NCBI GenBank assembly: GCA_003555075.1
Contig: PWHW01000007.1
Span: 1 to 45,974 of the forward strand
DNA from: Candidatus Nealsoniibacteriota bacterium
Lineage (GTDB): Bacteria; Patescibacteriota; Minisyncoccia; Minisyncoccales; PWPS01
Direction: 5' to 3'
Length of the DNA stretch: 45,974 nt
Translations under genes and position numbers: made by a program
Part shown: piece after piece, positions 2,577 through 39,140 of the stretch
How positions within the stretch are numbered: position 1 is the first letter of the stretch
Layout: each line of letters opens with the position of its first letter
The notes under the pieces: generated by a model
What the model saw: only the letters and a program-made list of their open reading frames with translations
Told to the model about the DNA's origin: nothing
The model's database searches: none

Positions 2577-3599
2577 TTACATTCTTTCACCTCTTTGCAT
2601 ATGAGAAAAAGGGTTGGATCCGTTTCTTGTTTCAAAATGCAAGTGGCATCCCGTAGCTCCTATGGTGTAACCGGTATTTCCCATAGTACCCATTCTTTGT
2701 CCAGAGCTTACCCTTTGTCCTGAAGAGACGCTGACTCCCTGCATATGTGCATACAAAGCCTCAAAGTTTCCATGATCCACAAGAACATACCTTCCCGCTC
2801 TACCATCATATCCGGTTCTTACCACTATTCCGGAGGACGCGGAATATATTGGAGTTCCACAGGAATTTGCCACATCAATTGCATTTCTATGCCCGGGATG
2901 ATCACCTTGTGTTACCGTTCCCCGCGTAGGAACGGCAAATCCCACAGAAGAAAAACCTGAAGGAGCACTCGGTTCTGTTGAAGGGGCAGGTTCGGGAGGT
3001 TTCTCTCCTTCCGGTATAATAAGCATCTCCCCGGGTCTTATATCAGAAGCCTCAATGTCATTAAAGCTCATTATTCTATCAAGTTCCGCCTTGTGTTTTT
3101 CCGCGATCTCGCTTGGAGAATCGTTTTTCTCAACATAATACAATACTCCTGTAGTGGGAAGTATCAATAGTTCATCTCCTTCCTTTATTCCATTCTCCAC
3201 ATTGTTTGCCCACTCTATGGTTTCTTTGCTAATACCAAATTCTTCTGCAACACTATCCACTGTATCTCCTTTTTGTACTTTGTAGGACATTATGCTACTC
3301 CTTTCCCCTTCAAGTCCCTTTGCTCCCATAACGCTTGTTTCGGTAAAATAAGGGGTGGACCCGGCAAGCAAGGAATTGCTTCCGAAAAAAGTTATCTTTT
3401 CAAACCCCGGCCCTCCATTCTTATTATAAGAAATAAAAAGATCGTTGCTGCTGTGCTCAGGCGCTGTCTTCTCTTTTAAATCAGGGGTCCCCTGTGATGC
3501 AAAACAAGAAAATAGCAGCAATCCAAAAAAAACAAAAACAAGGAGAAAGTCGCTTCTCCTTATTTTTCTTCCTTTTTCTTTACCTTTGCTCCAAAGCAC
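2577..3599 (-). CDS. Secreted/membrane-anchored M23 peptidase with two LysM domains
   Basis: 340 aa; N-terminal hydrophobic segment; LysM (YKVQKGDTVDSVAEEFGIS; YYVEKNDSPSEIAEKH); M23 motifs HRNAIDVA and HLHFE. Confidence 0.88.
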   Translation of the reverse strand: MLWSKGKEKGRKIRRSDFLLVFVFFGLLLFSCFASQGTPDLKEKTAPEHSSNDLFISYNKNGGPGFEKITFFGSNSLLAGSTPYFTETSVMGAKGLEGERSSIMSYKVQKGDTVDSVAEEFGISKETIEWANNVENGIKEGDELLILPTTGVLYYVEKNDSPSEIAEKHKAELDRIMSFNDIEASDIRPGEMLIIPEGEKPPEPAPSTEPSAPSGFSSVGFAVPTRGTVTQGDHPGHRNAIDVANSCGTPIYSASSGIVVRTGYDGRAGRYVLVDHGNFEALYAHMQGVSVSSGQRVSSGQRMGTMGNTGYTIGATGCHLHFETRNGSNPFSHMQRGERM

Positions 3600-4635: not shown

Positions 4636-5415
4636 ATGAAAAGAGAAGACAAAAGAACTCTCATCATTAGCGTGATCATGATATTTTTCCTGATCTTTGC
4701 TTCTTACTGGAGACTGGTGAATATAGGAACCTCCAAGCCTTCTTCCGACCCTCCATTGGGAGAAGGAATGGAAGCTTCCGACAGAGAAAGCTTGCTTCCC
4801 GACGACGAGGAGATCATGAAGATGATACCCGAAGAACGCCTTCAGGAAATAATGCCCAAAGAATACAGAGAAGGGTTGCCACCCGAATATCAAGAAATGT
4901 TTCCGGACTCAATCTACTCAAACGATACAAGTACAAAAGAAGAAAGTACGATTGATATAGACAATATTGAATTCGCCACCTTTTCCAAGGAAGGAGAGGT
5001 GGCTTTCAAATACCCTTCCGAATGGACAACTGTAAAAGAATTCGAAGAAGAAAAGGTTGAAACAGAAAAAGCAGAGTTCCTTTTTATCGCCCAATCGGAA
5101 GACCCGTACAACCCGCCTTCTCTGGCTGTTTTAAAAATGGAAGCCTCCGATATAGAAGAAGTGTTGGAGATAATAAAAAAGGAAATAGAAATAGATGGAG
5201 CTAATATGAAAATTACAGAAAAAGAAAAGAAGGAAAGCGGATATATTCTTGAAACAAAAAATGATCTCGGAGGAGTTATATCAGTATCAAGAAAGAAGAT
5301 AGTGTCCACAAAAGAAGGATATTATTATCTGGTTTCCGTTAGCGGATTTAGCAGGAATTGGGAAGAAGTATCACCAATAGCGGATCATATTATAGATTCC
5401 ATAAAGCTTAAATAA
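4636..5415 (+). CDS. Hypothetical membrane-anchored protein with PsbP-like C-terminal domain
   Basis: 259 aa; one N-terminal TM; C-terminal 'VAFKYPSEWTTV...YYYLVSVSGFSRNWEEVSPIADHIIDSIK' resembles PsbP/DUF1795-like folds. Confidence 0.6.
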   Translation: MKREDKRTLIISVIMIFFLIFASYWRLVNIGTSKPSSDPPLGEGMEASDRESLLPDDEEIMKMIPEERLQEIMPKEYREGLPPEYQEMFPDSIYSNDTSTKEESTIDIDNIEFATFSKEGEVAFKYPSEWTTVKEFEEEKVETEKAEFLFIAQSEDPYNPPSLAVLKMEASDIEEVLEIIKKEIEIDGANMKITEKEKKESGYILETKNDLGGVISVSRKKIVSTKEGYYYLVSVSGFSRNWEEVSPIADHIIDSIKLK

Positions 5416-5422
5416 AAAACCA

Positions 5423-7306
5423 ATGAATTCCAAAAAAGTAGTTTTTTTTCTTGCATTACTCATTCTCTTCTTTCCTCTTTTTTCTTTGGGGGAAAATAAC
5501 GAAGAAGATTTTCAAACGGCAATAGGAGATGTGGAAACTCAGCTTAATTGGCCAACTTCACCTCTAACGGGGGTCAATTTTCAGCAAATGGAAGAAGAAG
5601 GGAGAGCTCCGCAACTCCATCACTTTATTGAGTACCTTTATGGATGGGGCATAGGAATAGGAGGGTTTTTTGTTTTCGCAATGCTTGTTTACGGGGGAAT
5701 AGAATACATGACCGCCGCCGGAAACCCGGGAAAAACAAAAGAGGCAATGAAAAGAATAACCTCTGCGGCAACAGGTCTTGTATTGCTTTTGGCTTCTTTT
5801 TTGATCCTAAACACTATAAACCCTCAACTCACACAGCTCACTGATGTCACTGAAGAAGTTCAAGAGATGAAGATGAGACTACAAGGGCTTGACCCTAAAG
5901 ATCTGGGTGAACCTCCTTGTGCCTTCGTTGCTTTCTTTCCCGAAGAGAATTATGGTGGTGAGCCCGACATAGTAGAAATTGGAGAAAGAAATGTAAGTGA
6001 TATTCGCAGTAGTCTCGGAGGCGAAAACATACAATCCGTAAAAGGTTTTCGCTATATGAATCTTGACGAAGCAAGAGAATACAAGAGAAATAGAAATGAA
6101 TACGAAAAAGTCGGAGAAAGAGAAATTTATATAAGAGGAGAAGACAGAACTCTTAATTTTGAAATAAAAGAATTTGAAGGAGATAGAATTATCTATACAA
6201 ACACCACTGATGGAGATGCTCTGGGGGACTGGGATCTTCTTATAGAAACCGATTCCTCTTGTAGGGTAACTCTATACAGGGATGGAGATGGGATATTCGG
6301 AGGTGATCCCGCCACTTTGTGTGAAAGGCAGATCGGTGTAGTAACAAGCAATGTTCCCAGTCGTTCTTACTTGGAAGATGCTGTTTTTGGAGGGCAGGCT
6401 TTCACTCTGGATTGCTTAATAGTAGAAAACGTAGGGGAGGGAGCGCCATATTATGAAGAGATCTACTTTTGGAGCGAATGCGTACATGTTCCCGAATTCG
6501 CCGTGTACGATCCGGATGAAATAGATCGATGCCCCCCGGGTTCCGAACACGTCTCCAGCCATCAAAGATGCGAAGATTATTTGGGAGAGAAAAGAAGGGA
6601 TGTAATGGAGAAGTGCGGGCCCTACGAATATATTTTTTGCTGTAAAGGAAAACCCGACGAGGTTACACTCCCCGTAGAACACGATGCAGAAATAAATGTT
6701 TATAGCGATCAAAACAAAATTTCCCCTGGTGAAACAGTAGAAATAAAGTGGGAATTGACCGACAAAGACCCATCCATAGCTCCTGACTGTGTTGCATTCT
6801 CCAGTCCCACAATAAATGAATGGGACGGAGATCAAGGATCAAATCAAACAGAAGGGAGTAAAGAAATAACGCTTCAAGACGAGGGTACTTATTCTTTTGG
6901 CGTACGCTGCTGGAAAGACTCGATAGCAGAAAGAAGGGATACTACCTCTGTGACAGTCACGGAAGAAGAGGAAGCTCCCGATATAGATATAAATGTAAGA
7001 ATAGGCTGGTGGGACGATATGATCAATGAATGGGTTTATGGTCCCGTAGAAGATGAAATAAGTCATACCGATGTCCATGACGATACAGCGGGATGGGAAT
7101 ATTTTGTAAAAATAGAATGGGAATCGGACGGAGCAGAAGACTGTTATGGAGCCGCAATAATATCAGGACAAGAAATAGAAGGCACCTCGGGCACACAGAC
7201 TTGGTCGCCACTTTTCTTTAATGAGGAAGTAAACGACATTTCGATAACTTGCGAAAAGAACGGCTTTACAGAGACAAGCGGTGTAAAATATTACAGATGG
7301 GAATAA
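5423..7306 (+). CDS. VirB2/TrbC-like pilin module fused to putative beta/gamma-crystallin-like, Cys-rich and Ig-like extracellular domains
   Basis: 627 aa; signal peptide; two-TM module (GWGIGIGGFFVFAMLVYGGIEYMTAAGNPGKTKEAMKRITSAATGLVLLLASFLIL); FVAFFPEENYGGEPDIVEIGERNVSDI...NIQSVKGF Greek-key-like motif; Ig-like tail. Confidence 0.7.
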   Translation: MNSKKVVFFLALLILFFPLFSLGENNEEDFQTAIGDVETQLNWPTSPLTGVNFQQMEEEGRAPQLHHFIEYLYGWGIGIGGFFVFAMLVYGGIEYMTAAGNPGKTKEAMKRITSAATGLVLLLASFLILNTINPQLTQLTDVTEEVQEMKMRLQGLDPKDLGEPPCAFVAFFPEENYGGEPDIVEIGERNVSDIRSSLGGENIQSVKGFRYMNLDEAREYKRNRNEYEKVGEREIYIRGEDRTLNFEIKEFEGDRIIYTNTTDGDALGDWDLLIETDSSCRVTLYRDGDGIFGGDPATLCERQIGVVTSNVPSRSYLEDAVFGGQAFTLDCLIVENVGEGAPYYEEIYFWSECVHVPEFAVYDPDEIDRCPPGSEHVSSHQRCEDYLGEKRRDVMEKCGPYEYIFCCKGKPDEVTLPVEHDAEINVYSDQNKISPGETVEIKWELTDKDPSIAPDCVAFSSPTINEWDGDQGSNQTEGSKEITLQDEGTYSFGVRCWKDSIAERRDTTSVTVTEEEEAPDIDINVRIGWWDDMINEWVYGPVEDEISHTDVHDDTAGWEYFVKIEWESDGAEDCYGAAIISGQEIEGTSGTQTWSPLFFNEEVNDISITCEKNGFTETSGVKYYRWE

Positions 7307-7315
7307 AAAACATAA

Positions 7316-9010
7316 ATGACTGCCAAAAAAATCACGGTAATTGTCACTTTTCTTTTGATAGCACTCTTTCCTTCTCTTGGTTTAACAGAAAATGAAATTG
7401 ACTCATCACTCCAAAGAACTGCTAGCCTGGATTGGCCCACCTCCCCTCTCACGGGAATAAATTTTCAAGAAATAGAAAGAGCGGGAGAAGTGCCCCAAAT
7501 CCATCATCTTATTGAATACCTTTACGGGTGGGGTGTGGGAATAGGAGGATTCCTTGTTTTTGTCGTTCTGGTGTTTGCCGGTGTGCAATATATGACTGCC
7601 GCCGGAAATCCGGAGAAGACCAAGGAAGCAATGGAGCGAATTTCCTCGGCCATCATGGGGTTAATCCTTCTTCTTTCTTCCTTTTTGATACTGGAAGCGA
7701 TCAATCCCGGCATGACACAAATAAGGGATGTGAGAGAGGAGGTAGAACAGATGGAAATGCGAATGGAAGGATATGATCCAAGAGATCTGGAAGAGCCTGC
7801 TTGTGAATTCATTAAAATCTATGAAGAGGGAAATTTTGAAGGAGAAAGTGTAAGACTGGAAAGGGGAACTCATACAATAAGTGACATTGAGAGAGGGGCC
7901 GGTCTTTCTTCTTTTCATTCCTTGAAAATGTTCCGAAAACTTGATGAAGAAGAAGCCGACAGATACCTTGAGAACGGAGAAATAAAAGAAGATGTTTCAC
8001 ACGATGAGAGAGATATAATTATAGAAGACGACATACCTTACATAGAAACCCATAGCTCATGTCGCGCAACAGTTTATCGTGAAACCCGATCCACTCTGTT
8101 TGGCATAACAATAAGATCCACTCCTTGCGGAAGGCAAGTGGGAATAATAAACAATAGAATAAAAAGCTACTCTGAGCTGAACGATGTTCTTTTTCCCGAA
8201 AAAGGGACTGTTCCATCCATTGATTGTATGGTAATAGAAACCGTGGGAGAGGGAGAGCCGGCAGATTTTTATGCGGACTTAATGCCGGATGTTGAGATCC
8301 CTCCGGGGAAATGGAAGTGCGCCAAGGAAGACCCGTGTGAAACGGATGGAATACTATTCTCACAAAACCCCTCAAAAGCAAAAGATGTATGCGACCCGGA
8401 AGAATTAAAGGATCCTGATAATCCGGAAGATCACTGTAAAGAGGAAGAAGAATTATGGTGCTGTCCTCCCGTAATGCCCGACGTGCCTCACTATGCCCAA
8501 GGAGACCCGCGGTGGGGATATAAGATATATGGAAGAGATTGTGATCCACAAAGAAATATGAGTTATGCTGGATGCGGACCCACTTCCGCCGCCATGATGC
8601 TTTCCTATTACGGAATTCCTATAGACCCCTGGGATGCCGCTCAATTCGCACTACAAAGGGGTCATCGCGTGTGCGGAAGTGGAACTTATCAATCACTTTT
8701 TTCAGATATTGCAGATCATTATGGGCTAAAGTATATTTACTTGGGCCAAAACACCAGCGAGGTGAGAAAATATCTCGAAAACGGTTATCCGGTGGGAGCG
8801 AGAGTTTATGCTCCCCCTCTTCGTGCAGATGGAAGAACAGGTGGTCACTATATCGTCTTTACGGGAATAGACGAAAAATATCTCTACATAAACGATTCTG
8901 TTTTTAACCACCCGGTAAGAGTTCCCCAAGAGTCGCTGGAAACCTTACCTTACCAACATCCTGATGATAGAGGATCTAATCGTGCTTTCGTTATTCTTCC
9001 GGGAGAGTAA
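7316..9010 (+). CDS. VirB2/TrbC-like pilin module fused to putative beta/gamma-crystallin-like domain and C39-like cysteine peptidase domain
   Basis: 564 aa; paralog of the preceding gene over the N-terminal ~300 aa; C-terminal DVPHYAQGDPRW...AGCGPTSAAMMLSYYG...GGHYIVFTGID...YINDS papain-like C39_2 motifs. Confidence 0.75.
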   Translation: MTAKKITVIVTFLLIALFPSLGLTENEIDSSLQRTASLDWPTSPLTGINFQEIERAGEVPQIHHLIEYLYGWGVGIGGFLVFVVLVFAGVQYMTAAGNPEKTKEAMERISSAIMGLILLLSSFLILEAINPGMTQIRDVREEVEQMEMRMEGYDPRDLEEPACEFIKIYEEGNFEGESVRLERGTHTISDIERGAGLSSFHSLKMFRKLDEEEADRYLENGEIKEDVSHDERDIIIEDDIPYIETHSSCRATVYRETRSTLFGITIRSTPCGRQVGIINNRIKSYSELNDVLFPEKGTVPSIDCMVIETVGEGEPADFYADLMPDVEIPPGKWKCAKEDPCETDGILFSQNPSKAKDVCDPEELKDPDNPEDHCKEEEELWCCPPVMPDVPHYAQGDPRWGYKIYGRDCDPQRNMSYAGCGPTSAAMMLSYYGIPIDPWDAAQFALQRGHRVCGSGTYQSLFSDIADHYGLKYIYLGQNTSEVRKYLENGYPVGARVYAPPLRADGRTGGHYIVFTGIDEKYLYINDSVFNHPVRVPQESLETLPYQHPDDRGSNRAFVILPGE

Positions 9011-9019
9011 TAGATCGCT

Positions 9020-9472
9020 TTACATTTGCGGTTCAATCTCCGGAACATCTTCAGGAGTCTTTTCCAGTTCTAAAAGAAGCTCCTTTTCTCCTTCCAAAAA
9101 TATATTCTTTTCCGCCGGTAAATATCCTTCCTTGTAACCCCAGATCCAATACTCCCCTACGGGAAGCTCCACCACACTGGGAGTATCAAAAGAGTTTTTG
9201 CCGTCAATATAAAAGCTCGCTCCTTTCGGATCGGAGTCAATGTAAAGCTTGAACATTTCTCCAAAACGCTCTTCTTCTTCTATATACTGGGGAACTCCCA
9301 CTTCTTCAAACATCTCTCTGTCGGGAAAAAGATATTCTTCCGGCTCTCGCGGTTCTTCTTGATCATCCCTTGAAGCATAGGGGCTTACAAAAAAGATGAC
9401 AACAAGCAGTGCGATCACTATTGCCGCACCAATGAATATAAATGTTTTTTCGCTATCAATGTTTTTGAACAT
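9020..9472 (-). CDS. PEGA-domain membrane protein
   Basis: 150 aa; N-terminal TM; SDPKGASFYIDGKNSFDTPSVVELPVGEYWIWGYKEGYLP PEGA-like repeat. Confidence 0.8.
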   Translation of the reverse strand: MFKNIDSEKTFIFIGAAIVIALLVVIFFVSPYASRDDQEEPREPEEYLFPDREMFEEVGVPQYIEEEERFGEMFKLYIDSDPKGASFYIDGKNSFDTPSVVELPVGEYWIWGYKEGYLPAEKNIFLEGEKELLLELEKTPEDVPEIEPQM

Positions 9473-9578: not shown

Positions 9579-11615
9579 ATGATAAACAACAAAAGGATAA
9601 AAACAGGTTCTCTTTTTACGTTTTTTCTTATAGCCTTCTTGGTCTTTCCTCAAATAGCCGATGCTTGGGCATTTGATGCGGCAAAAGCGGCTCTTGCAGG
9701 TCTATCCGAGATGTCTGGTCCTTTTGCGGGCATAGTGATGTTTTCCATCATATTCGCTCTCATAGGAGTGGTATTCATTTTTCTTTCCTCCGTTCTTCTT
9801 CAAGGCATGATGGAGATATCTCCTCAGCTTTTGACAGTTTCCGGCACCGGAGACATGGTGGTAGGAATAGGAGATAATGTGCAAATCGCATGGGAATTTC
9901 TCTCGGGTATAACCAATATGTTCCTTCTTATAGCATTCATCGCCATTGCTCTTTCCATTATATTGGGAGTGGAAAGTTTCGGCTTGAAGAAGTCCTTGCC
10001 AAGATTTGTTGTAGTAGCACTACTCATCAATTTTTCCCTTCTGTTTGTGGAAATAGGGATAGATATCTCCAACTTTCTCTGGAATTCCGTGGCAGACTTG
10101 TACACGACCCTTGACCCCCAAGAAGGAGGAATGCTGGAAGGAGTAGGAGATGAGAATATCTTTCTTCGCTCCATATACCCCTTAATAGATCTTGGGATGG
10201 AAATATACATTAGCAGCGCCGCTTTCATGGCAACCATGGCCGCAAGACTGGCTGTTCCTTATCTTAATGTGGCAACTCAAGTAATGTGGCTCGTAGCATT
10301 TCCTTCTCTCCTTGCAATGGTAGTGGAGAATCTGGTGTACGGAGGAATACTTTTTATGTTATCGGGAGTGTTCTTTCTTTTTTACTTTGTACTCCTTGCT
10401 CGTATATTCATAATACAAATACTGGCGGTAATTTCTCCCCTTGCATTCTTTTGCCTCATCTTTGATCAAACAAAAAAGTGGTTCGATCAATGGGTAAGTT
10501 ATTTGATACAATGGCTCCTTGTAGGAGTGGCAATGCTCTTCTTTATGTATATAGGACTTCTTTTTGCTCCCATTATTCAAAACCATGTTCGAAATATTGG
10601 AGAGATACTGTTCGCCTTTAACCTGCCGTGGTACATAGACTGGATCGTCCCGGATTTCCCCGCCATATTCGCTTACATCTCCTTATTCGTCTACTTTTTG
10701 GTAATTTTGGGAGTTATATATAAGCTCATTCCCGCAGGAGTACAAGCCGGAATGACACAAGTAAAAACAATGGCAAGCCAGTATGCTCTCCCCATGGCTC
10801 AAGCAGCCGGAAAAGGAGGAAGAAAGCATTATCAAAAAGTGGCAACCACATATGCTGAAAAAGGAAAAGAGTGGGCGACGGATGTCGCCGAGCCGGGAAG
10901 CGGAATGCAGAAAAAAGCTGCTGCTTTTGCAAAAAGAGGTCTCGGAAAAAGAATTACCGGCGCTCTAGAGGAAGAGCAAAAGGAGATCGACGAGAGAGCT
11001 AAAGAAATACAAGGAAAAAGCAAAGAAACACAAATAGCTACTCTCCATAATGCCCGCAAGGACAAAGAAAAGCTTGCAGCAGTGAAGGCCATGTACAAGG
11101 ATGATAGGCGCAACGAGGTCGAAGAAGCATTTCTGAACAATGAAGAGTCCTTTAATGAAACCTTTAAATATGCTCAAAAGATAGGTGAGGAAAAAGATCT
11201 TAAGAAATCCGCTCCTATTTCTTACGCCAAACATACGAACGCCGACCAAGGCGAAGTTGAGAAGATCGTCACTGAAACCCTTAAGCCTGAAGATATAGAA
11301 AAGGCTACCAAGAAGATCACTGAAGCATTCAAATCACAAGACAGTAAAGAAAGAAAGATAGGAGAGCAAATGATTGATGCAATATTAAAGTCAAGAGATG
11401 CTAATCGCCAAAAGAGTTTCTCAAAGGATGTCAAAGGAATAGAGTCCATTGAAGAACGCATTGATCAGCTGGCCCTTTCCCAAAATTATGTAAGCGACGC
11501 TTCCCAGATCAACCCTTCTATTCGCGGACAGGTCGTACAATCAAATTATCAATCCTTTGGCAAGCATCTTAGAAGAAAACCCGGTGAAAATCTTTACGAT
11601 ATAGAGATGTCCTAA
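9579..11615 (+). CDS. TrbL/VirB6-like polytopic membrane protein of type IV secretion-like system
   Basis: 678 aa; signal-like N-terminus, multiple TM helices over the first ~380 aa, long charged cytoplasmic C-terminal tail; neighbours PrgI and VirB4. Confidence 0.75.
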   Translation: MINNKRIKTGSLFTFFLIAFLVFPQIADAWAFDAAKAALAGLSEMSGPFAGIVMFSIIFALIGVVFIFLSSVLLQGMMEISPQLLTVSGTGDMVVGIGDNVQIAWEFLSGITNMFLLIAFIAIALSIILGVESFGLKKSLPRFVVVALLINFSLLFVEIGIDISNFLWNSVADLYTTLDPQEGGMLEGVGDENIFLRSIYPLIDLGMEIYISSAAFMATMAARLAVPYLNVATQVMWLVAFPSLLAMVVENLVYGGILFMLSGVFFLFYFVLLARIFIIQILAVISPLAFFCLIFDQTKKWFDQWVSYLIQWLLVGVAMLFFMYIGLLFAPIIQNHVRNIGEILFAFNLPWYIDWIVPDFPAIFAYISLFVYFLVILGVIYKLIPAGVQAGMTQVKTMASQYALPMAQAAGKGGRKHYQKVATTYAEKGKEWATDVAEPGSGMQKKAAAFAKRGLGKRITGALEEEQKEIDERAKEIQGKSKETQIATLHNARKDKEKLAAVKAMYKDDRRNEVEEAFLNNEESFNETFKYAQKIGEEKDLKKSAPISYAKHTNADQGEVEKIVTETLKPEDIEKATKKITEAFKSQDSKERKIGEQMIDAILKSRDANRQKSFSKDVKGIESIEERIDQLALSQNYVSDASQINPSIRGQVVQSNYQSFGKHLRRKPGENLYDIEMS

Positions 11616-11635
11616 TAAGATTGAAAAAAGGAAAA

Positions 11636-12094
11636 ATGCCCAAAAAATATACAAAAAAAGAGTGCAGAGAAATATACGAAAAGCTTCCCCCAAAGATCAA
11701 GGAGCTCTTTTGGGATGAAGATGTCTCCGATAGAATCGAAAAAGTGATAAAAAGATTCAATTTGGGCAAGATAAAGGGTGACAGATTGAACAAGATAATA
11801 TTCTATGTTTTTCTGGGGTTACTTCCACCCTCGTTAATAAAAAGAATGCTAAAGGAGAAGCTGGCCCTGAGCGAAAAAGAAAGTGAAGAGCTGGGAGACG
11901 AAGTTATTCGCTATATAATAGCTCCCATGAAGCATCTTTTGAAAATGCTTTATAAAAAGGAAGAGTTCGAAAAAGTGGGAATAAAAAGTGATTTCTACGA
12001 AAAGGATACGGAAACCGAAAGAAAGAAGTCTCCGCAGAAAAAAGAAGAAACAAGCAAGGATTCATCCGATCCTTACAGAGAACCTGTTGAGTAA
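11636..12094 (+). CDS. Hypothetical protein within the T4SS-like operon
   Basis: ORF track starts at TTG 11621; ATG at 11636 (MPKKYTKKECREIYEKLPPKIKEL...) is a likelier start. No family recognised. Confidence 0.7.
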   Translation: MPKKYTKKECREIYEKLPPKIKELFWDEDVSDRIEKVIKRFNLGKIKGDRLNKIIFYVFLGLLPPSLIKRMLKEKLALSEKESEELGDEVIRYIIAPMKHLLKMLYKKEEFEKVGIKSDFYEKDTETERKKSPQKKEETSKDSSDPYREPVE

Positions 12095-12102
12095 GTTGAA
12101 AT

Positions 12103-12513
12103 ATGCGTTTCAAGGTTCCCAGACATATAGAATACAAAGCGAAAATAGTTGGTCCAGCCACCTTCCCTCAGCTTGTCTATCTTGGGACTACCGCCCTCAT
12201 TGTTTTTTCCCTTTATCTTTTTTTGGGATCTTCAGTAGCATTCTATCTTTTCTCGATCCTTATTCTGTCAGGAGGCGTGGCACTTGCTTTTTTGGAAGTT
12301 TCCGGAGAACCTCTTCCTGACTATATCAGAAAAATGCTAACCTTTACCGTATCATCAAAAAAATATATCTGGAAAAAGGAATCCCTTTCTCCAAAGGTAA
12401 AAGTTCCGGAAAGAAGAAGTGTTCACTCAAAAGAGAAAGGAGAGAAAGAAGAAAAAATGAAGAAAAAGAAGGAAGGTAAAATAAGTAAAATAACCGATCG
12501 TTTAGCATCATAA
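12103..12513 (+). CDS. PrgI/VirB3-like protein
   Basis: 136 aa; MRFKVPRHIEYKAKIVGPATFPQLVYLGTTALIVFSLYLF, two TM near the N-terminus, immediately upstream of the VirB4-like genes. Confidence 0.8.
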   Translation: MRFKVPRHIEYKAKIVGPATFPQLVYLGTTALIVFSLYLFLGSSVAFYLFSILILSGGVALAFLEVSGEPLPDYIRKMLTFTVSSKKYIWKKESLSPKVKVPERRSVHSKEKGEKEEKMKKKKEGKISKITDRLAS

Positions 12514-12516
12514 GAT

Positions 12517-13137
12517 ATGCCCTACGAAAAAAGCACACAAGATTTCGTTCCTATAAGGCAAATAAGAGAGGGTGTTCTGATTTTGGATAACAGGGAATTA
12601 AGAGGAGTATTGATGGTATCATCAATTAATATCGGCTTGAAATCCAGTGATGAGCAAAAAGCGATAATAAATCGTTTTCAAAGCTTTTTGAATTCCCTTG
12701 ATTTTTCTTGTCAAATAGTGGTTCAATCAAGAAAGACCAATATTACCGGCTATATTGATAAAATAAGAAGATTGGAAAAGAAACAGACCAATGAGTTGTT
12801 AAAAAAACAAACCTCCGGTTATCGAAAATTCTTAGAGGAATTCGTGGAAAAAGAATCAATATACAGTAAAAGCTTTTTCGTTGTTGTGCCCTATTCTCCC
12901 GGTTTCAGCATTTCTTCCGGATCAGGAAAAAAAGAAATGAGTGAAGAGGATTTTCAAAGAGGAAAGGAACAACTCTATCAAAGAATGGAGTTCGTAGCTT
13001 TGGGTCTTAGAAGGTGCGGTCTTAATTGTGCACCTTTGACCACTCTAGAGATAATTGAACTCTTTTGGTCAATATTCCACCCCAAAAATGCTGAACATGG
13101 GTATTACCCGGAATTTCCGAAAGAACTAACCGGATAA
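12517..13137 (+). CDS. TraC/VirB4 N-terminal-domain-like protein without ATPase domain
   Basis: 206 aa; STQDFVPIRQIREGVLILDNRELRGVLMVSSINIGLKSSDEQ resembles TraC-family N-termini; no Walker motifs. Confidence 0.7.
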   Translation: MPYEKSTQDFVPIRQIREGVLILDNRELRGVLMVSSINIGLKSSDEQKAIINRFQSFLNSLDFSCQIVVQSRKTNITGYIDKIRRLEKKQTNELLKKQTSGYRKFLEEFVEKESIYSKSFFVVVPYSPGFSISSGSGKKEMSEEDFQRGKEQLYQRMEFVALGLRRCGLNCAPLTTLEIIELFWSIFHPKNAEHGYYPEFPKELTG

Positions 13138-13158: not shown

Positions 13159-14967
13159 ATGAATTTTCTGGAAAACATTAAAAAATTTCTTCCCGGAAAG
13201 AATGGAAAAGATTTACCACAAAAGAAATCCGAAGAAGGGTCCAGCGTCGTAAGAATAGTGGATGTGGTAGCACCCTCTTCCATTGAAGAGACTCAGGGTC
13301 ACTTGAAAGTGGAAGAAAGATTTACTCGCTCCTTTTTTGTTTTTTCCTATTCCCAATACATTACAGCTGGTTGGATATCTCCAGTGATCAACATGAATAC
13401 TCAGCTTGATATTTCCTTTTTTATTCACCCCGCAAAAACAGCCGATGTACTTAAAAAACTCAGAAAACGTATAACTCAAGTACAAGCGGAAATGATGGAT
13501 AAAGAAGAAAAGGGAATAGTAAGGGATCCCGCACTGGAGAGCGCCTACAAGGACATGGAAGAGTTAAGGGATAGACTTCAATCAGCAGAAGAAAGAATGT
13601 TCCATTTTGGACTTTATATTACAGCATATGGTGATTCCAAAAAAGAAATAGAAGAAACCGAGACTAGATTGAGATCCATTTTTGAATCAAAGGCTATTTA
13701 TATAAGACCGTCTCTTTTTCAGCAATCCTCCGCTTTTATAAGTACTTCTCCTTACGGAATGGATCTTTTGCAGACCCATAACCCCATGAACACAGAACCA
13801 CTTTCAAGCATATTTCCTTTTATTTCTTTTGATCTTACTTCTTCGGATGGAATACTTTACGGAATAAATAAACATAATAATTCCCTCGTTCTTTTTGATA
13901 GATTTTCTCTCGAGAACGCCAACGCCATTATATTCGGAACCTCTGGGTCCGGAAAATCATATCTTGTTAAACTGGATGTTCTTAGATCTCTTATGTATGG
14001 AGTTGATGTGATTATTGTAGACCCGGAGAATGAATATAAGACCTTGGCAGAATCAGCGGGAGGATCTTTCTTCAATATTTCCCTGGGATCCGACAATCAC
14101 ATAAATCCTTTTGATATTCCTGTTCCCACGGAAGAAGAAACCAAAGAAGAGGTCATAAGAAGAAATGTTATCAGCTTGGTAGGTCTTTTTAGAATAATGC
14201 TTGGAGGTCTTACTCCGGAAGAGGACGCTATCATGGATCAAGCAATAACGGAAACTTATGCCGCAAAAGATATCACTCCGGAAAGTGATCCAAGCACCTG
14301 GGAAGAAAAGGTTCCTCTCTTTTCTGATCTGGAGCAGGTTCTGGAATCAATGGAAGGAACAAGAAATCTTATACTCCGCCTCAGAAAATTCACAAAAGGA
14401 ACATATTCAAAGTTCTTCAATCAAAAGACCAATGTTTCCATGGAAAACAATTTGACTGTCTTCGGGATCAGAGATCTGGAAGATGAGATGAGGCCGATCG
14501 CAATGTTCATCATTACTCGTTTCATATGGAAAGCAATAACCTCATCCATGAAGAAAAGGATGTTCGTTATTGACGAAGCGTGGCTTATGATGCAAAACGA
14601 GGATGGAGCATCATTCTTGTTCGGATTAGTGAAAAGAGCCAGAAAATACTGGCTCGGTGTTACAACCATCACGCAAGATGTTTCCGATTTTATGCATTCC
14701 AATTATGGAAAACCGATTGTAACCAACTCTGCTCTTAAGATTCTTTTAAAACAATCTCCCGCAGTGATTGACATGATCCAGAATATCTTCAATCTTACCG
14801 ACGAAGAAAAGTTCATTCTTCTTGAAGGAGAAGTTGGAGAAGGTATCTTTTTTGCCGGTCAAAAGCATGTGGCAATACAAGTAATGGCCTCTTACGAGGA
14901 AGACCAAATAATAACATCTTCTCCCGAGGAAATAGAAAAAATAAAAAAGGCTAAAGGAGGTCTATGA
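13159..14967 (+). CDS. VirB4/TraC-family conjugative transfer ATPase
   Basis: 602 aa; Walker A GTSGSGKSY, VDPENEYKTLAE, Walker B RMFVIDEAW, TTITQDVSDF. Confidence 0.92.
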   Translation: MNFLENIKKFLPGKNGKDLPQKKSEEGSSVVRIVDVVAPSSIEETQGHLKVEERFTRSFFVFSYSQYITAGWISPVINMNTQLDISFFIHPAKTADVLKKLRKRITQVQAEMMDKEEKGIVRDPALESAYKDMEELRDRLQSAEERMFHFGLYITAYGDSKKEIEETETRLRSIFESKAIYIRPSLFQQSSAFISTSPYGMDLLQTHNPMNTEPLSSIFPFISFDLTSSDGILYGINKHNNSLVLFDRFSLENANAIIFGTSGSGKSYLVKLDVLRSLMYGVDVIIVDPENEYKTLAESAGGSFFNISLGSDNHINPFDIPVPTEEETKEEVIRRNVISLVGLFRIMLGGLTPEEDAIMDQAITETYAAKDITPESDPSTWEEKVPLFSDLEQVLESMEGTRNLILRLRKFTKGTYSKFFNQKTNVSMENNLTVFGIRDLEDEMRPIAMFIITRFIWKAITSSMKKRMFVIDEAWLMMQNEDGASFLFGLVKRARKYWLGVTTITQDVSDFMHSNYGKPIVTNSALKILLKQSPAVIDMIQNIFNLTDEEKFILLEGEVGEGIFFAGQKHVAIQVMASYEEDQIITSSPEEIEKIKKAKGGL

Positions 14968-37463: not shown

Positions 37464-37961
37464 ATGGATGATTTTCTGGCTCCCGAAAAGATTATAAGGG
37501 AGATTCCTTCAAAGGAGGAAATGAGTGTTGCCGATTTCGGGTGTGGAGCAGGAGGGATCACCATTCCTCTTGCAAAAAAGTGCAAAGATGCCAAAATATA
37601 CGCAATAGATATTTTGAGCGAAGCACTTTCCGCACTAAGAAGCAGGGCGGAACTTGAAAAGGTTTACAACATTCGCACCCTGAGGGCCGATCTTGAAAAG
37701 GGGACGGAGCTTCAAGAAAACTTCTTTGACCTTGTAATAGTGTCCAATATACTTTTTCAAGCCGATGACAAAGAAGCTGTATTAAAAGAAGCTTATAGGG
37801 TGCTAAGGGACGGAGGACAATTGTTCGTGGTTGATTGGAAAATGGAGAATGATAAGGCCGAGGAAAAGATAAAAGAGGGAGCGGAAAACGAGGGCTTTAA
37901 ACTTTTAAGAGAAGTTGATGCCGGAAAGGATCACTTCGGAAGGATTTATGAAAAAAAATAA
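37464..37961 (+). CDS. Class I SAM-dependent methyltransferase
   Basis: 165 aa; MSVADFGCGAGGITIPLA, IYAIDILSEAL, LVIVSNILFQADDKEAVLKEAYRVLRDGGQLFVVDW. Confidence 0.88.
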   Translation: MDDFLAPEKIIREIPSKEEMSVADFGCGAGGITIPLAKKCKDAKIYAIDILSEALSALRSRAELEKVYNIRTLRADLEKGTELQENFFDLVIVSNILFQADDKEAVLKEAYRVLRDGGQLFVVDWKMENDKAEEKIKEGAENEGFKLLREVDAGKDHFGRIYEKK

Positions 37962-38286
37962 GAAAAAAGTCATATTTTCCACTCTTTTCTTTTTGCTTTT
38001 CGCAATTCCCTTTTTTGCCCTTGGTTCGCCTCTTGACCCCTTGGGAGGGCAATACAGCACCTTGCCCGAGCTTGTTACTGCTATCGTGAATTTCATTGGT
38101 CGGGTGGCCATTGTTCTTACTCCGCTGGTGTTTATTTATGCCGGTCTTCAGTATTATTTTTCCACTGGAGACCCGGATAAGGCGAAAAAGGCTGCGGACG
38201 CTGTAAAATGGGGAATTGTCGGACTGGGGATCATAATTGTCGCCGAGGGAATTATTTATGTTATTGAAGATGTTCTTCTAAATTAA
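37948..38286 (+). CDS. VirB2/TrbC-like two-TM pilin-like protein
   Basis: MKKNKKK start inside the 3' end of the methyltransferase gene; VFIYAGLQYYFSTGDPDKAKKAADAVKWGIVGLGIIIVAEGIIYVI. Confidence 0.78.
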   Translation: MKKNKKKVIFSTLFFLLFAIPFFALGSPLDPLGGQYSTLPELVTAIVNFIGRVAIVLTPLVFIYAGLQYYFSTGDPDKAKKAADAVKWGIVGLGIIIVAEGIIYVIEDVLLN

Positions 38287-38682
38287 ATGAAAATACTCAA
38301 GGAGGACTACAAGAGAAAAAAAACTTTAAGAAGAGGAATTTGGGGATTAGCAACCCTTTTCATTCTTGGAATTCCCTTTTTTGCGATCGCAAATAACGGA
38401 GTTCTGATAGGGGAAGGGCAAGATGTTATTGATGTTATCATTAATTTAACGGAATTCGTTTGGAGGATATTTCTGCTTATAACGGTACTTGTCTTTATTT
38501 ATGCAGGTTTTACTTATTATACGGCCGCCGGAAACCCCGACAAATTCACTACTGCCAATAAGATGGTGATGTATGGGCTTATCGGTCTTGCTGTTGCGCT
38601 TCTCGGTTGGGGAGTCAGTTCTCTTATGAAGGATTTCCTCGATCCGGATTATTATAATTATTTGTTCAATTTTTTTTCGTAA
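38287..38682 (+). CDS. VirB2/TrbC-like two-TM pilin-like protein
   Basis: 131 aa; VFIYAGFTYYTAAGNPDKFTTANKMVMYGLIGLAVALLGWGVSSLM. Confidence 0.78.
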   Translation: MKILKEDYKRKKTLRRGIWGLATLFILGIPFFAIANNGVLIGEGQDVIDVIINLTEFVWRIFLLITVLVFIYAGFTYYTAAGNPDKFTTANKMVMYGLIGLAVALLGWGVSSLMKDFLDPDYYNYLFNFFS

Positions 38683-38786
38683 TACTTCAGTGATCTATCA
38701 TTGACCCCTGCGGAAAAATTGTTTATCATTCCATTAATAGAAATTTTTGCCGAAAAAGGTCGCAAGGAACAAAATAAAAACGAAAG

Positions 38787-39140
38787 ATGAAAAAAATAGC
38801 TATAATTTTATTGTTGGTCGGGGTGCTTGTTGCTCCCATGGTTGCCGTGGGCCAACCGGATGTTACCACTCCCGAGGGGTGGAGAGGACATATAGAGAGC
38901 CCGGAGGACATAGAGAATCTTTTAGAGAGCCTTATTGAATGGATATGGGGAATCATGATAATAGTAGTGGTTGGTTTCTTGCTCTATGCCGGATTCTTGT
39001 TTGTTACTGCAGGAGGAAGCGAGGAGCAGGTCGGAAAAGCGAAGGATTTTGTGAAGTATGCGTTGATAGGTATTGTTGTGATGTTACTTGCCTGGGGAGC
39101 GGTGTCTTTGGTAGAAGCGTTCCTTCAGTTAGGGCAGTAA
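38787..39140 (+). CDS. VirB2/TrbC-like two-TM pilin-like protein
   Basis: 117 aa; signal-like N-terminus; FLLYAGFLFVTAGGSEEQVGKAKDFVKYALIGIVVMLLAWGAVSLVEAFL. Confidence 0.78.
   Translation: MKKIAIILLLVGVLVAPMVAVGQPDVTTPEGWRGHIESPEDIENLLESLIEWIWGIMIIVVVGFLLYAGFLFVTAGGSEEQVGKAKDFVKYALIGIVVMLLAWGAVSLVEAFLQLGQ

Follow-up and report, generated by a model that had tools for sequence, protein, structure and literature searches.

The complete 46-kb contig PWHW01000007.1 (C8; 45,974 nt; hereafter the window) of the 609-kb genome of Candidatus Nealsoniibacteriota bacterium (GenBank assembly GCA_003555075.1) carries two adjacent genes, here called P1 (5423..7306, + strand; 627 aa) and P2 (7316..9010, + strand; 564 aa), in which the pilin module of a type IV secretion system (T4SS) is fused to a βγ-crystallin domain. 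P1 and P2 are tandem duplicates spaced by 9 bp. Each runs from a signal segment and pilin module through the βγ-crystallin domain and a Cys-rich linker into a head of its own, predicted to be a pair of immunoglobulin (Ig)/fibronectin type III (Fn3)-like domains in P1 and a C39-like cysteine peptidase in P2. Identity between the two proteins is 70% over the pilin module and 39% over 436 aa.

Both open reading frames (ORFs) were confirmed and have no internal stops. An artefactual fusion of frames was ruled out, as neither frame is interrupted and many genomes show the same joints, and we hold it to be almost certain that the pilin–crystallin–head architecture is real. An initial annotation, made from the sequence of the window alone, had recognised the fusion of pilin and crystallin, which holds for both genes; the fusion is not confined to them, however, but recurs across the order, and the C39 peptidase of P2, the Ig-like tail of P1 and the Cys-rich linkers had been overlooked.

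Pilin module and βγ-crystallin domain

The pilin modules (P1: aa 64–138, 5612..5836; P2: aa 61–134, 7496..7717; both + strand) match T4SS_pilin (PF18895) with 38.9 and 41.6 bits, respectively (E 9e-10 and 1e-10), over the curated cut-off of 26.6 bits, which bears out their earlier placement in the VirB2/TrbC class. They have the two-transmembrane (TM) layout of the PF18895/Mbov_0395 family, and the NCBIfam model of the latter (pilin-like family NF045849) also matches P1 (E 1.4e-7, under the model’s cut-off). In hydropathy plots, both proteins show an N-terminal signal-like hydrophobic segment, then two further hydrophobic stretches that are joined by a short charged loop; this agrees, as does the identity over the module, with the signal peptide and the highly similar two-TM module originally described. 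The AlphaFold model of P2 has helices at residues 62–94 and 99–129. Four other proteins encoded in the genome exceed the PF18895 cut-off: one on another contig and three stand-alone pilins of 123, 131 and 117 aa (37915..39140, + strand), all three of which had been called pilin-like from their topology. The latter are likely to be ordinary pilin subunits, compared with which P1 and P2 bear about 430–490 additional residues, predicted to lie on the outside. Across the phylum, PF18895 is present in 235 of 241 genomes sampled.

The βγ-crystallin domain follows at about aa 163–340 in P1 (5909..6442, + strand), where a loop is inserted between the two Greek-key motifs, and at about aa 161–312 in P2 (7796..8251, + strand). 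Three profiles were compared with all PDB sequences. The first covers the stretch beyond the pilin in P1, P2 and five relatives from the same genus, trimmed mechanically at the conserved Cys that follows that module; 31 of its 34 matches are βγ-crystallins (best, Protein S, 4.7e-4), the other three being kinesins. With the second, for which segments were picked by eye from relatives in the order, all 56 matches are crystallins (best 2.4e-6), and most span both motifs. The third, from full-length pilin fusions of other families of the order, gave crystallins in 22 of 24 matches, while a control profile built on pilin fusions of the peptidase type at the same loci gave none. A Foldseek search of PDB with the full-length AlphaFold model of P2 (block confidence, pLDDT, mostly 72–86 over aa 160–210 and lower beyond) returned Protein S, clostrillin and hahellin at the top, with a probability of 1.00 and target-normalised TM-scores of 0.65–0.71. 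The PDB profiles and the P2 model thus confirm that the post-pilin segment folds as a two-motif βγ-crystallin, the outcome expected of structure prediction by the initial annotation. Both crystallin-like strings quoted there are present and their likeness is beyond chance, given the first profile and the fact that PF00030, searched for across the whole genome at E ≤ 10, matches the crystallin segment and nothing else (0.07, under cut-off). What was described there as a “degenerate second motif” (SSCRxTxYR...) opens the second Greek-key motif.

The Pfam cut-offs for PF00030 and PF08964 are not reached in the window (best 12.7 bits against a cut-off of 25), and in scans of the relatives’ pilin fusions, PF00030, PF08964 and PF03995 recur, all under cut-offs where these are given. 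Searches of PDB with single sequences were equally unproductive: phmmer with one relative’s crystallin segment returned only a chance antibody match, the crystallin region of another (L070) retrieved no crystallin, and only profiles succeeded. A generic Cys-rich β-sandwich that matches the aromatic-x-G pattern superficially would fit the Pfam scores and the low identity of the P2 domain to known crystallins (~8–16% in the Foldseek matches), but this explanation is most improbable, since profiles from three sets of relatives draw almost exclusively crystallins, the control draws none and the fold match has full probability. The P1 domain is not among the top Foldseek matches of the full P1 model because the C-terminal tail dominates the search; its modelled strand pattern resembles that of P2, and its assignment is a prediction from homology to P2 and from the profile.

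P1 and P2 have two Greek-key motifs in common with Protein S, clostrillin and hahellin, their best profile and fold matches, but differ from microbial βγ-crystallins in the long inter-motif insert, in the fusion to a pilin and in the lack of the canonical Ca2+ motif. The latter ([ND][ND]xx[ST]S) is absent from all 23 crystallin segments compared, so Ca2+ stabilisation was dropped, and with it the earlier suggestion of an ion-stabilised domain. Conserved cysteines occur in its place, and their count is even in nearly all of the 23 segments; P1 has 14 cysteines, P2 has 12 if the candidate nucleophile C420 is left uncounted. Stabilisation by disulfides rather than by ions is therefore likely. The Cys-rich linker of P1 (about aa 345–414; 6455..6664, + strand) aligns with that of P2 (about aa 313–384; 8252..8467, + strand).

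C-terminal heads and origin of the pair

The head of P2 (aa 385–564; 8468..9007, + strand) matches Peptidase_C39_2 over aa 389–528 (E 1.5e-21; 77.9 bits against a cut-off of 24). On inspection of the motifs, the catalytic Cys, His and Asn/Asp and the oxyanion Gln are all present (candidates C420, H511, N526/D527 and Q395), and the head is apparently a C39-type cysteine peptidase, predicted to be intact. SLT/muramidase and CHAP domains gave no Pfam match in P2, which has C39_2 instead, and P2 would at most be an analogue of VirB1, one that may work like it. The tail of P1 (about aa 415–627; 6665..7303, + strand) is assigned from AlphaFold strands and Foldseek, with moderate to low confidence, as two Ig/Fn3-like β-sandwich domains: the best matches of the full P1 model (itself of moderate to low confidence) are multi-domain Ig, macroglobulin and FnIII proteins.

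In a tree inferred from the pilin columns only, P1 and P2 form a clade (support 99/99) nested within the clade of the genus (100/98), so the duplication took place in this lineage. Same-genus relatives of P1 and P2 are 266–300 aa long and end shortly after the crystallin domain; both the Ig/Fn3-like and the C39 head therefore look like later acquisitions. On average, pairs of sequences are 59% identical in the pilin, against 35 and 26% in the two crystallin motifs, by which measure the crystallin neck appears to evolve much faster than the pilin. Other genomes of the genus encode separate pilin–M23 or pilin–C39 proteins. In this genome, no pilin–M23 protein was found, the best match to one being a LysM–M23 protein, and no pilin–hydrolase fusion is detectable besides P2. 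That LysM–M23 protein (2577–3599, − strand) is a secreted hydrolase with two LysM domains, encoded near the T4SS operon.

A tandem pair of pilin–crystallin genes also occurs at locus L054 (5435–6418 and 6468–7655); the pilin modules are near-identical and the outer parts differ, which suggests a recent duplication or a gene conversion of the pilin part.

T4SS operon and spread among relatives

P1 and P2 lie just 5′ of a T4SS operon, all genes of which are on the + strand: a VirB6-like polytopic membrane protein (9579..11615; no Pfam match over cut-off, but kept as a neighbour of pilin fusions in relatives), a conserved 157-aa protein with no assigned function (11621..12094), a PrgI/VirB3-like protein (12103..12513; PF12666, E 6.8e-10), a TrsD/TraC-N-like protein corresponding to an N-terminal VirB4-type half (12517..13137; TraC_F_IV under cut-off; TrsD is described in PMC12102498) and the VirB4 ATPase (13159..14967; P-loop_TraG, E 1e-29). 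The co-occurrence of VirB4, TrsD-like, PrgI/VirB3, VirB6 and pilin genes is that of the MPF_FATA-like T4SS gene set of Patescibacteria. The ORF lists of the window contain no relaxase near virB4, MOB models not having been run. A small antisense gene for a PEGA-domain protein (9020–9472, − strand) lies between P2 and the VirB6 gene and splits the operon; at this position, most relatives have a gap of less than 60 bp or an overlap. Upstream, a PsbP-like protein (4636–5415, + strand; E 7.5e-4, under cut-off) is encoded 7 bp 5′ of P1, possibly in the same operon. Farther upstream, three adjoining genes (378–2162, + strand) share the N-terminal repeat ESIKKAREKxxSDxEILExIxxxNPxKxxxxxxAxxRGxxPSEILDEI, and the third encodes a TM segment and a large outer domain.

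A search for related loci with P2 alone as the query found none among the genome contigs, where a rescan with another query found only five; none was found among viral contigs. At loci picked by similarity to P2, a sample that is biased for gene order, the pilin fusion stands directly upstream of the main VirB6 gene in 30 of 32 operons. A near-universal order of pilin–crystallin gene before VirB6 was ruled out by samples anchored on VirB4, in which most pilin fusions outside the window’s neighbourhood are downstream of VirB4. In these samples, fusion proteins of at least 200 aa with an N-terminal pilin are encoded at 20 of the 40 class loci and at 27 of the 40 order loci, in most cases downstream of VirB4. 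A crystallin-type partner was detected at 8 of the 40 order loci, partly with a profile built from those same loci, and at none of the 40 class loci (37 from other orders), where divergent crystallins would escape these profiles. Pilin fusions are thus common in the class, and the crystallin type was detected only in the window’s order. A crystallin-profile scan of class genomes, with a first-look filter that is weak for a short divergent domain, returned almost nothing; it missed the window’s own domain too and is no evidence of absence.

Fusions of a pilin to a hydrolase are more widespread than those to a crystallin. Other members of the order have the pilin fused to C39 or M23, and at several order loci, a long peptidase-type fusion adjoins a crystallin-type one; in other orders, pilin modules bear M23 (7.9e-11) and NlpC/P60 (9e-8) domains. 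Among the proteins of these orders (L145:1925-3205, L127:15146-16240, L129:16041-16865 and L132:16208-17281), NlpC/P60 or M23 domains follow the pilin modules, and so do segments with an HSxGxxxDLR-like pattern, M15-peptidase-like by eye and with no Pfam match. A second class of pilin fusions, marked by a conserved EIPIG motif together with regions rich in Cys and helical ones, and in many cases by C39 or M23, was seen at ten loci (L163, L169, L171, L173, L174, L175, L176, L181, L185 and L197), usually directly downstream of VirB4. In addition, fusions in the reverse orientation, with a pilin-like two-TM stretch at the C-terminus, occur upstream of the T4SS (L047:1799-5392, L049:370-6828, L054:8365-11070 and L065:5565-7925; also in L168, L172, L178, L191 and L199; 571–2152 aa).

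Possible role of the pilin fusions

From topology, synteny, the recurrence of hydrolase heads and known T4SS biology, we consider it somewhat probable that P1 and P2 are surface-displayed VirB2-type subunits of the T4SS, with a binding head on P1 and a cutting head on P2. The pilin module would be embedded in the membrane or placed at either the base or the tip of the T4SS filament, its C-terminus facing outwards, and the crystallin domain would form a disulfide-stabilised neck on the cell surface. The head of P1 might then bind the partner cell and that of P2 cut wall peptide or a coat protein at the contact site, so that an enzyme linked covalently to the pilin would take over the work of VirB1. 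Several points weigh against this. A bulky C-terminal head could block polymerisation; proteins are the substrates of many C39-like proteases, and P2 has no detected wall-binding domain; the models of P1 and P2 made with AlphaFold are shallow (7 sequences; mean pLDDT 55 and 56), with both the C39 and the Ig heads modelled at low confidence.

Less probable, though to be taken seriously, is that the pilin-like module is a mere membrane anchor inherited by duplication and that P1 and P2 serve the producer’s own envelope, as a spacer or in wall turnover during T4SS assembly, with no host contact. The heads are indeed much larger than the pilin, C39 and M23 domains could open the producer’s own wall, and in Gram-positive T4SSs, the VirB1 homologues are wall hydrolases of several domains that are anchored in the membrane (PMC12857230). 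Such proteins (PrgK, TraG and Orf14) resemble P2 in having a membrane-anchored extracellular hydrolase domain encoded with the T4SS; their anchor is an ordinary one and bears SLT/muramidase, LytM and CHAP domains, whereas P2 has its C39-like domain on a pilin module (PMC12857230). The Ig/Fn3-like tail of P1, which offers no hint of an enzyme, the faster change of the crystallin neck and the recurrence of tandem crystallin-type pairs in another family (L053 and L054) all argue against a plain anchor.

It is rather improbable that the C39 head, instead of being a weapon against the host, acts outside the membrane as a processing peptidase in the maturation of pilins or of substrates of this T4SS. 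Classical C39 peptidases cleave the double-glycine leaders of secreted peptides, and candidate substrates (the three stand-alone pilins and P1) are available; these leader peptidases work in the cytoplasm, however, while the signal peptide and topology of P2 place its head outside. Moreover, relatives fill the same position with the unrelated M23 and NlpC/P60 families, the known members of which are mostly wall hydrolases.

The preferred reading, of displayed subunits with binding and cutting heads, touches on what has been described for T4SSs of Patescibacteria. The epibiotic growth of Southlakia requires the T4SS and its pilins (Wang et al. 2023, PMC10633639), and in Paceibacteria that live on methanogens, the highly expressed genes include those for T4SS pilins (PMC10936435). 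Vibrio RbmC has a βγ-crystallin domain that serves as an adhesin module and binds mucin (PMC10903470); RbmC of V. cholerae is, like P1 and P2, a modular cell-surface protein with such a domain, but it is a secreted matrix adhesin that has neither a pilin module nor a link to a T4SS. This gene set, with arrays of VirB2-like pilins, is the one described in a survey of Patescibacteria T4SSs (Quinonero-Coronel et al. 2025, PMC12102498). Shared between the window and these systems (PMC12102498, PMC10633639) are VirB4, TrsD-like, PrgI/VirB3 and VirB6 proteins and PF18895 pilins, as well as a chromosomal location near dnaA. The accessible part of the survey reports neither a crystallin domain nor a pilin–peptidase fusion; the window differs from the systems described there in having hydrolase or peptidase domains fused to the pilin. 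Most genomes with VirB2 are stated there to lack VirB1, from which the survey argues that pilus biogenesis seems to be VirB1-independent (PMC12102498). A hydrolase joined to the pilin offers another reading. No published description of the pilin–crystallin combination was found in the literature covered, which excludes subscription papers and preprints, and automatic domain databases may list such proteins with no remark.

More tentatively, one may imagine that Paceibacteria build a T4SS filament or tip with pilins whose necks, of the crystallin or another type, carry heads that act as adhesins and hydrolases. In this still doubtful scheme of a host-boarding device, VirB2-type pilins would provide, by fusion, the functions of the missing VirB1 and VirB5, and lineages would exchange the heads (C39, M23, NlpC/P60 and Ig).

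These proteins bear on how Patescibacteria, which make up a very large share of bacterial diversity, hold on to and feed on their hosts; in the sole species tested, their T4SS, with its puzzling pilin array, is essential. If the proposed role is true, P1 and P2 would be named, testable proteins for host recognition and entry, the fusion of hydrolases to pilins may explain the usual lack of a separate VirB1, and βγ-crystallin folds would be structural parts of a secretion system.

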